From contig NZ_JAEPQA010000004.1 in NCBI RefSeq assembly GCF_017640745.1, positions 135,803 to 199,802 on the forward strand: DNA of 64,000 nt. Direction: 5' to 3'. A model generated the notes under the pieces. The model worked only from the letters and a program-made list of their open reading frames with translations, was not told the DNA's origin and did no database searches. The position numbers and the translations under genes are program-made. The stretch comes from Nisaea sp. Its GTDB lineage: Bacteria; Pseudomonadota; Alphaproteobacteria; Thalassobaculales; Thalassobaculaceae. Positions 53,773 through 55,959 of this stretch are shown here, in pieces. The stretch's first letter is position 1. Every line of letters begins with the position of its first letter.

Positions 53773-54816
53773 TCAGAATTTCGGGGCGCTGCTTTCGACC
53801 TTCAGAAGATGATCCAGGCCGGGATAAAGATCGGACTGAACGAAGTCCACACGCTGCTGAATCCCTACATTCGGCTTGGCGAACCGGGTCCGCCATTCAT
53901 AGACCTTGACCGTCAGTCCGCACAGCACCTCAGCGAGGCTCGACTGGTGCGCCAGGATCAGGTCGCGCGCGGAGCGGAACTCTTCAAGGGTGAGATGTTC
54001 CCAGTCGAAAATCGCCTGCTTGTCGAAGCCTCGAAAGCGTTCGACGACGCTGTTGGTGATCATGTCGATCGCGGCCGAGACCTGCTTCAGACGTTTCATC
54101 GCCTGATCGCCCTGGCGGAAGCTGCCGCGGGCGCCGGCTTCCTCGATCCAGCCGTGCAGCTCCTTGATGCGCGGAACGATGAGGTTGAGATAGCTGCGGT
54201 AATAGCCGAGCGAGAGGAAGGCATCGCCATAATCCTCCAGCAGTTCCGGCAGCGTCTCGAGATCGGTCTCGAGCATGACCGAAAGCTGCTGCAGTCGCTC
54301 CCGCGCCCTGTCCTTGTCGGCCATCGCCATGATGTCGCGGAGGCTGCGCGGATCGGTGATGTCCATATCGCTGTCGCCGAACACGTGACGGACCAGCGGG
54401 CGCGTGAGGTTGCGCATGTGCCCCGCCAGTTCCCGCTTCTTCTCGTCGGACAGGCTGAGGATGTCCGTCGCCTCGACATCGAGCCCGCTGGTACGCACCG
54501 CGCGCCTGAGCGAGTAACAATCGAACGCCGGAAGTCCGGCCGCCTGTTTCAGCATCGGGATGTCGTGGCGCGTCAGGTCCTCGCTCGAATCGACATAGTG
54601 CGGGAGTTCATCGATGCCGAATTGCCCGCTGCCCGTTCCGGTTCCGCGGAACGCCTCCACCCTGGTCTCGAGACGGACATTCTTGATCAGACGCAGCCGG
54701 AGGAGGCCCCGGCTGCGCACCGGCAAGGCGGCGCAGGCGAAAGTATTGATCGAGTCCCGATCCTCGCGATCGATAGCCTTCCGCGAAGCGTCTGTCTGGA
54801 GGAGCGAATCTGACAT
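53773..54816 (-). CDS. Uncharacterised protein, tandem paralogue A
   Basis: I do not recognise this 347-residue soluble protein. It is clearly homologous along its whole length to the gene directly upstream (paralogue B). Shared blocks are [11 protein letters not shown] (42-52), TGSGQ (61-65), [34 protein letters not shown] (about 126-147), [16 protein letters not shown] (192-207), WIEEA (223-227) and [15 protein letters not shown] (294-308). It is mostly predicted helical after residue 85, with no membrane segment or signal peptide. It starts 28 bases after paralogue B stops, so the pair is an operon inserted between zapE and mdh in a TCA-cycle neighbourhood. No function can be assigned. Confidence 0.82.
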
Positions 54817-54844
54817 GGACCCCGTGTCGATCTGTCTGCGCCGG

Positions 54845-55849
54845 TCAGGCGAAGGTCGCAGCCTTGCGCTCGATCCCGGCCAGGTGGTCGAGTCCGGAGC
54901 GGAGATCGGTCATGACGAATTCCGCACGTCGCTCGAAGCTGCCGCCTCCGCCCGGGAAGCGCTGCTCCCACTCGTAGATCTTCACGACAAGACCGCACAG
55001 CACGGCAGCCAGGCTGGCCTGGTGATCTGTGATCAGCGTGCGCACCTGGTTGAAGGTGGAGATCGTGACGCGCTCCCAGCGGATCTGCGTCTTGGTGTCG
55101 AAATTGGTGAAGCGTGTCTTTAGCGACTGCGAGAGCGCACCCAGAAGGTTCGCCGTCTTGCGCAGCGCCGGCCCCATCACCGTGTCGTTCCCGATATGCG
55201 CCGGCCGCCGCGCTTCCTCGATCCACTCCTGGAGGGCCGCAATGCGCGGCGCGAGGTCGTCGAGGTGATGCCGGTAGAAACCGAGAGAGAGGAAGGTGTC
55301 GCCGTAATCCTCGAGCATGTCCGGCAGCTCCCGGCGGCTGGTCTGCAGGGAGGCCGCGAGACGCTCGAGCCGCATGCGTACGGCGATGCCCTCCGCCTGA
55401 TCGAGCAAGTCGCGGATCGCCTGGGGATCGCCCAGCTCGATCTCCTGCGCGCCGAATACATACTGGACCAGCGGGCGCGTCAGATCGCGCATGTGCGGCT
55501 GGAGTTCACGCTTCTTCGCCGCACTCAGTGAGAATGCCGAGACGTCGTCAACCTCGATGCCGGCGGCACGAAGGCCGCGGCGCAGGGAATAGGGATCGAA
55601 GCTCTCCATCTCCCCGATTTTTTCCAGCATCGGCATATCGTGATGCACGAGATCGTCCGTCGCCGCAACGAAGTCCGGCAACTCCTCGATCGCGACCTGG
55701 CCACTCCCCATTCCCCTCTCGCGGTAGAGCTCGATCCGCGTTTCCATGCGAACGTTTTTGATCAGCCGGAACTTGCGCGCGCCTCTGGTACGCAGGGGAA
55801 GGATCGCGCAATCAAGCGTATGCAGGGAATCCTGATCACGATCCGGCAC
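54845..55849 (-). CDS. Uncharacterised protein, tandem paralogue B (start uncertain)
   Basis: I do not recognise this protein, 334 residues from GTG 55849. It aligns end to end with paralogue A, with FRLIKNVRMETR, MGSGQ, LTRPLVQYVFG, MLEDYGDTFLSLGFYR, WIEEA and LAAVLCGLVVKIYEW in the same order. The GTG lacks a clear ribosome site. Upstream in frame, GGGAG (complement of 55898-55902) lies six bases before an ATC codon (complement of 55889-55891). Starting there gives 26 residues before the DCAILP block, exactly the number in paralogue A before ACAALP. An in-frame TAG lies at 55910-55912. The leader contains a CtrA-type site at 55960-55974. Confidence 0.8.
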   Translation of the reverse strand: MPDRDQDSLHTLDCAILPLRTRGARKFRLIKNVRMETRIELYRERGMGSGQVAIEELPDFVAATDDLVHHDMPMLEKIGEMESFDPYSLRRGLRAAGIEVDDVSAFSLSAAKKRELQPHMRDLTRPLVQYVFGAQEIELGDPQAIRDLLDQAEGIAVRMRLERLAASLQTSRRELPDMLEDYGDTFLSLGFYRHHLDDLAPRIAALQEWIEEARRPAHIGNDTVMGPALRKTANLLGALSQSLKTRFTNFDTKTQIRWERVTISTFNQVRTLITDHQASLAAVLCGLVVKIYEWEQRFPGGGGSFERRAEFVMTDLRSGLDHLAGIERKAATFA

Positions 55850-55959
55850 CAGCGGCGGCCGCGCGGCGGAAAAATCGATGGCATAAGCGATGACACTCTC
55901 CCGGGAATCCTATCTTATCCGGAGCGTTCTGCCCACCATGCGATATATCACGCACCATC

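Follow-up and report, generated by a model that had tools for sequence, protein, structure and literature searches.

What do two adjacent, similar genes between zapE and mdh encode in a genome of Nisaea sp., and why are there two of them? We addressed these questions in a window of 64,000 nucleotides, the whole stretch of DNA that was analyzed, where the pair and its immediate neighbors are arranged as follows.

52667..53620, minus strand: mdh, lactate/malate dehydrogenase family (Pfam), the downstream neighbor
53773..54816, minus strand: gene A, 347 amino acids, ATG start, branch 1 of an unnamed alphaproteobacterial family
54845..55891, minus strand: gene B, 348 amino acids from a probable noncanonical AUC start at 55891, the tandem paralog of A
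56056..57177, minus strand: zapE, AFG1-like ATPase (Pfam), the steadier, upstream neighbor

Tandem paralogs from an unnamed family

A sequence-only reading of the window had described two minus-strand frames separated by 28 bases, and both are there: the stop codon of B lies at 54845-54847, with the ATG of A 28 bases away. The same reading took the products for paralogs, which BLASTP bears out over their full length (152 identities in 330 residues, or 46%, E 5e-108). The five blocks that it quoted (RLIKNVRxETR, GxGSGQ, LTRPLVxxVFG, LEDYGDxFLSLGxYR, and LCGLxVKxYEW) occur in both proteins, and the core letters of each are kept across 79 aligned family members (13 of the 92 family sequences were dropped beforehand), so constraint spans the whole protein. 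No stretch hydrophobic enough to suggest a membrane segment occurs in either protein, the highest 19-residue Kyte-Doolittle means being 1.1 and 1.4 (with B read from its GTG), and both are probably cytosolic.

The earlier failure to recognize a known family also stands. Neither A nor B scored over a curated cut-off in Pfam-A or NCBIfam or matched significantly in PADLOC; the best named-family score for B, 15.1 bits to DUF3323, fell short of the cut-off for that family, 26.6. Ten relatives searched against the named-family libraries likewise gave no match over cut-off. The best hits in the PDB, by sequence (3ibp, MukB, E 0.0029) and by profile (E 0.042), were unconvincing; the MukB match, which covers a helical stretch, was set aside as likely due to chance. 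Given no convincing match in Pfam, NCBIfam, PADLOC, or the PDB, the pair is unnamed in these libraries, and A and B are members of a real family that none of them names. A search of phage proteins and a scan of viral contigs revealed no relatives, whereas a search of plasmid proteins returned 11 Azospirillum records. None of the open PMC papers listed by our literature searches was seen to name the family.

AlphaFold2 models (nine sequences), with a mean pLDDT of 69.8 for A and of 67.2 for B, lay out the two proteins alike: a low-confidence beta region at about residues 30 to 67, followed by helices, three of them long, between residues 189 and 311. For the model of A, the one compared with known structures, Foldseek returned nothing specific (best E 0.33), and VIA-align gave Z scores up to 10.9 (rmsd 3.8, 153 residues aligned) to unrelated helical bundles, in what that tool calls the "common arrangement" range. 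The family is thus predicted to be mostly helical.

A probable AUC start for gene B

In the window, the frame of B contains no ATG between the upstream stop and the conserved body of the protein. We compared the window genome with four others of the Nisaea group (G001, G002, G003, and G004). An ATC stands at the same position in all five, and starting there makes every B protein 348 codons long. The GTG located 14 codons past the ATC (55849 in the window), which a plain list of open reading frames picks as the start, is missing from two of the loci (L005 and L006), and no ordinary start codon is common to all five genomes. In L006, an in-frame TGA lies two codons 5' of the ATC, and no ATG, GTG, or TTG occurs before the conserved body. 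Pairwise changes among the five genomes at codon positions 1, 2, and 3 number 0, 8, and 36 over the nine codons that open with the ATC, and 52, 38, and 39, which is even across positions, over the nine triplets upstream of it. The substitution pattern of coding sequence thus sets in precisely at the ATC. A candidate ribosome-binding site is suitably placed.

55898..55902, minus strand: Shine-Dalgarno-like GGGAG, 6 nt 5' of the AUC of B

This GGGAG is present in all five aligned genomes, with a spacing of 7 nt in L011 and 6 nt in the other four. What the comparison found, then, is a start for B that is other than ATG, GTG, or TTG and conserved among its kin. We consider it very probable that AUC is the start codon of B, a judgment that we make together with the one on the evolutionary origin of the pair given below, and of the two lengths that had been offered for B, 348 amino acids is the better. 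Whatever its function, B would be a clean natural example of an AUC start that a whole genus has kept. Gene callers limited to ATG, GTG, and TTG would mis-start it, at the GTG at 55849 in the window and at an internal ATG in one relative.

A parallel comes from Streptomyces, where sigR has a noncanonical GTC start that is repressed by IF3 and where the regulatory elements are conserved across the genus, according to the part of the report consulted (PMC5472188). Both genes have a noncanonical start codon, and sigR is cotranscribed with its neighbor (PMC5472188, same part), as B putatively is. They differ in that the codon is GTC in sigR but AUC in B, and in that the products are a sigma and an anti-sigma factor there but paralogs here; IF3 control of B would be hypothetical.

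Origin and distribution of the family

The window genome (G000) carries four members of the family, namely A, B, and copies at C6:4141-5142 and C7:16745-17728. Among this genome and its relatives, 31 of 61 have at least one match, including one genome with a broken fragment only (G009) and one with a match to a remote branch only (G054). Across the class, 49 of 387 sampled genomes match, nine of them through remote-branch proteins only. In the phylum sample, there were matches in 9 of 397 genomes, all in the class but one, and that one is marginal (65 residues, E 8e-4) and probably a chance hit. Copy numbers from the whole-genome profile searches are lower bounds, as these scored five or six candidates per genome. 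Removing 42 of 134 hits as duplicates left the 92 family sequences.

A tree of 80 of these sequences (12 of the 92 were dropped), built with a quick method and SH-aLRT support only, placed the five A rows and the five B rows as sister clades inside a set of support 97. The stems leading to A and B are long, at 0.95 and 0.58 changes per column. In the other genera of the GTDB family, this clade is mostly single-copy, usually after zapE. That A and B stem from one tandem duplication in the common ancestor of the Nisaea group is, like the AUC start, very likely. Elsewhere in the tree, the C6 copy of the window genome falls in a support-99 set of five that includes the loci L037 and L042. One locus (L105, at G303:C82, about 7617-8633) holds a copy that is in two pieces, with an in-frame stop, and is apparently decaying; a second family copy nearby is intact, and this genome is without FliG.

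A remote branch and recurrent tandem pairs

Proteins that match the family weakly, in open frames of about 340 to 445 residues, form a second branch. Compared as profiles, the two branches align over 244 columns with a probability of 98.8%, and each profile finds the other branch. Judged from these alignments, branches 1 and 2 are homologous and make up a two-branch alphaproteobacterial superfamily. With E 1e-3 as the limit, a profile of 12 branch-2 proteins had matches in 60 of the 387 genomes from the class, re-found branch-1 proteins included; it also matched 7 of 289 genomes in the phylum sample, all seven of which belong to the class. When strong members are judged by E-value, 42 class genomes have branch 2, 40 have branch 1, and 16 have both. 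In the window genome, branch 2 is represented twice (C8:97650-98714 and C6:69065-70171). We saw no constant partner gene among 20 branch-2 loci. At one of these loci (L150, 5048-9790), the branch-2 gene adjoins a TPR protein with a family-41 glycosyltransferase part (Pfam), and another neighbor, of the size class of about 250 residues, contains a TylF-type methyltransferase (Pfam); at L154 (4760-8675), a branch-2 gene has neighbors of the same two kinds, named by resemblance only.

Tandem pairs are found in other lineages as well. G016 has a branch-1 pair of its own, while G039 and G054 have branch-2 pairs that are 59% and 52% identical, the latter seven bases apart. Since the partners within each of these pairs are nearest each other, the pairs arose separately, and by this measure tandem pairs originated independently in at least three lineages besides Nisaea. 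That pairs keep arising may point to a role as partners or in dosage. Had the two genes occurred only singly elsewhere, the paired function proposed by the sequence-only reading would have lost ground. Most other genera of the GTDB family do have a single copy, but each of the five Nisaea-group genomes has both A and B, and tandem pairs re-arose in G016, G039, and G054. In addition, G622 has an adjacent branch-2 pair (C8:8800-9891 and 10065-11141) among at least six branch-2 copies.

These observations bear on an alternative whose probability approaches an even chance, namely that the duplicates split or changed roles without any physical or functional pairing, their tandem position being a relic of their origin. 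It is favored by the fact that most of the other genera in the GTDB family make do with a single copy and by the long separate stems of A and B, and it is less easily reconciled with the fact that the two genes have been kept side by side in five of five genomes or with the reappearance of adjacent pairs in the four genomes named above. An assembly in which A and B act together is a tentative proposal by comparison.

Gene context and co-occurrence with motility

Outside the clade that includes A and B, a flagellar or chemotaxis gene lies no more than four genes away in 11 of 49 branch-1 loci (L029, L030, L085, L037, L042, L046, L049, L036, L089, L109, and L111), a raw count, uncorrected for background. 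The motility neighbors of these 11 were confirmed by Pfam or by the annotation of the record. In the remaining 38 loci, we saw no motility gene, judging mostly by eye from short protein starts. The gene orders include cheA-cheB-PilZ-[family] with cheZ converging (L037), [family]-cheW-cheY-type-cheR (L042), and cheR-cheZ-[family], where the family gene is two bases away from cheZ (L046); in L049, a piece of cheB lies next to the family gene at a contig end. Two Azospirillum records share the order flagellin-flaF-flbT-x-DUF1217-[family], and flaF-flbT lie near the family gene in L085. A gene for an MCP adjoins L089 and another is three genes from L109, while FliG is three genes from L036 and a flagellin is four from L111. 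Not all of these loci are independent by descent, as the three Azospirillum-type loci form one clade and L037 and L042 cluster with the C6 copy of the window genome. Gene calling in the flanks used a codon-usage heuristic, which initially missed or misread the family genes in L009, L044, L084, L085, L088, L102, L114, and L117; the flanks of L040 were left out.

CheZ (PF04344) is a helical chemotaxis protein of alphaproteobacterial che clusters, as the family members in such clusters are predicted to be, and its gene adjoins family genes in L037 and L046, but there is no sequence relationship: A and B have no Pfam match to CheZ, and a profile comparison using three CheZ sequences only gave a probability of 0.1%. 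Similarly, the Azospirillum relatives of A share their gene row with the flagellin-operon accessory proteins FlaF, FlbT, and DUF1217, yet neither A, B, nor the Azospirillum relative has a Pfam match to these. PilZ (PF07238) had no Pfam match in A or B.

Family-positive genomes are enriched in FliG. In the class, FliG occurs in 41 of 49 positives versus 195 of 338 other genomes (p 2.5e-4), among the relatives in 27 of 31 versus 16 of 30 (p 0.004), and within the GTDB family of the window in 22 of 26 versus 5 of 10 (p 0.046), all three values being uncorrected for kinship and genome incompleteness. Eight of the 49 class positives are without FliG, and half of these are also without CheW (G204, G409, and G422, which have strong members, and G241, which has a weak one); the other four do carry CheW (G196, G232, G303, and G365). 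Among the relatives that match, FliG is missing from G009, G016, G017, and G022, three of which are less than 90% complete; G016, however, is 99% complete and has four copies, including its tandem pair. Positives such as G016 indicate that the family is not confined to flagellated cells, and the positives without FliG or CheW rule out a strictly flagellar or chemotactic function.

Such genomes leave room for a broader and doubtful, though not much less likely, alternative to a motility role: a general family of signaling adaptors in which each copy is wired to a nearby sensory system, motility is one output, and A and B serve a different one. Besides the presence of the family in genomes without FliG or CheW, several neighborhoods would fit. 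PilZ genes adjoin L035, L037, L038, and L043 (Pfam), an OmpR-type regulator lies beside L107 and L108, and PAS hybrid kinases lie near L107 and next to the C6 copy of the window genome. A LuxR-LuxI quorum-sensing pair (Pfam) adjoins the branch-1 copy in L096 (9444-10977). Yet most of the copies that we read stand alone with no constant partner, and A and B themselves are without a signaling neighbor. A candidate PilZ gene near L109 was unconfirmed by Pfam, and the small neighbors of the C6 and C7 copies of the window genome have no Pfam match.

The CtrA-type box upstream of B

Two overlapping features precede gene B.

55960..55974: CtrA-type box TTAA-N7-TTAA (TTAAGAGTAACTTAA on the minus strand), 68 bases 5' of the AUC of B
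55957..55977: perfect inverted repeat ATCTTAAG-N5-CTTAAGAT, with 8-base arms, enclosing the CtrA-type box

The stretch TCTTAAGAGTAACTTAAGAT of the repeat, 20 bases around the box, is identical in the five Nisaea-group genomes, while its flanks vary. Exact TTAA-N7-TTAA sites are not abundant in the window genome, with 14 in 4.5 Mb versus 35 for the reversed pattern. A second exact site lies 5' of a cheY-type/cheZ pair in a flagellar cluster (CheZ and the receiver by Pfam, the other flagellar names by resemblance). The same pattern was also observed 50 to 100 bases 5' of genes for a single-Cache protein (L128 2014, G000:C26:30513) and a dCache histidine kinase (L121 2025, G000:C1:48824).

The window genome encodes a protein with receiver and DNA-binding domains (Pfam) that is 74% identical to a segment of CtrA, the next best being 42%. 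In locus L135 (G000:C55:76000-94000), its gene is flanked on one side by a gene for a flagellar/type III export ATPase and on the other by cheR-cheB-cheY-cheW-cheA-like genes, which are followed by a gene for a ChpT-type histidine phosphotransferase; together they form a compact motility-control cluster. The parts of the literature consulted give TTAA-N7-TTAA as the CtrA consensus (PMC9437464) and propose motility and chemotaxis as the ancestral role of CtrA (PMC8116508 and PMC9437464). B resembles members of the CtrA regulon in having the exact consensus upstream, conserved in the genus, and from this its binding by CtrA and its dependence on CtrA are predicted.

Across the family, the box was found in 11 of 91 leaders versus 7 of 721 controls (p 3e-7), with one of the 92 genes left out for want of upstream DNA and five family genes excluded from the controls. 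The reversed pattern was nearly as enriched (10 of 91 versus 9 of 721, p 8e-6), which suggests that AT-rich leaders explain most of the family-wide signal; when only leaders with a G+C content of 50% or higher were counted, the box occurred in 4 of 66 family genes versus 4 of 645 control genes (p 0.004, forward pattern only). We therefore reject a family-wide CtrA box, and the box argues for B alone. Even there, it may be the operator of another dimeric regulator, a somewhat unlikely alternative that the perfect 8-base inverted repeat would suit and with which the identity of the stretch in five genomes agrees. The exact fit to a pattern that is rare in the genome, and the second site before the cheY-type/cheZ pair, speak for CtrA instead.

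The zapE-mdh neighborhood

The pair does lie between zapE and mdh, as had been said and as Pfam confirms for both flanks, but the TCA-cycle setting is not the functional clue that it was taken for. In the A/B clade, 13 of the 21 genomes have zapE immediately upstream. On the opposite side, within the DNA fetched, mdh occurs in 10 genomes and recR in 4, and four of the 13 genomes with adjoining zapE carry recR in the place of mdh. Because zapE is the steadier neighbor and recR can stand in for mdh, we regard the TCA-cycle setting as incidental. Several of these loci are only about 4 kb long and one (L020) began at the family gene. We saw no motility gene beside the loci of this clade that were read (the window, L005 through L009, L047, and L048); the rest of its loci span about 4 kb. 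That the family instead has a role in housekeeping or cell division connected with zapE, with the che and fla copies as later recruits, is improbable despite those 13 genomes. In G005, G016, and G024, the upstream DNA that was fetched, roughly 1.5 kb, showed no zapE, and none was noticed by eye beside copies of other clades. Where the spacing could be read, it amounts to about 120 bases or more and, along with the conserved box of B itself, suggests transcription separate from zapE.

A possible function for the pair

The best defensible reading, though one that falls short of an even chance, is that A and B act as a CtrA-linked pair that regulates motility or chemosensory output, with the signaling adaptor described above nearly as likely. 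A and B would be cytosolic helical adaptors or regulators of such output, like their relatives in chemotaxis and lateral-flagella clusters, and the pair would be expressed under CtrA. By analogy with the GTC start of SigR, the AUC start may keep B low relative to A, and scarce B could then set how active an A-B or A-A/B-B assembly is. The motility component, taken by itself, is possible rather than probable. It is suggested by the relatives in che and lateral-flagella clusters, the conserved CtrA-type box before B, and the enrichment of FliG, and is opposed by the positives without FliG and CheW, by G016, and by the 38 of 49 loci with no motility neighbor.

A more sweeping idea, which we regard as quite unlikely, is that the superfamily consists of interchangeable cytosolic output regulators for flagellar and chemosensory clusters that repeatedly evolve tandem partners. 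In Nisaea, the ratio of the partners would be set by a CtrA-controlled, AUC-started gene, with the codon serving as a fixed translational brake. If the motility role proves true, some alphaproteobacterial che and lateral-flagella clusters hold a component that is unnamed in the libraries tried. The window genome alone has four branch-1 and two branch-2 members of this unnamed superfamily.
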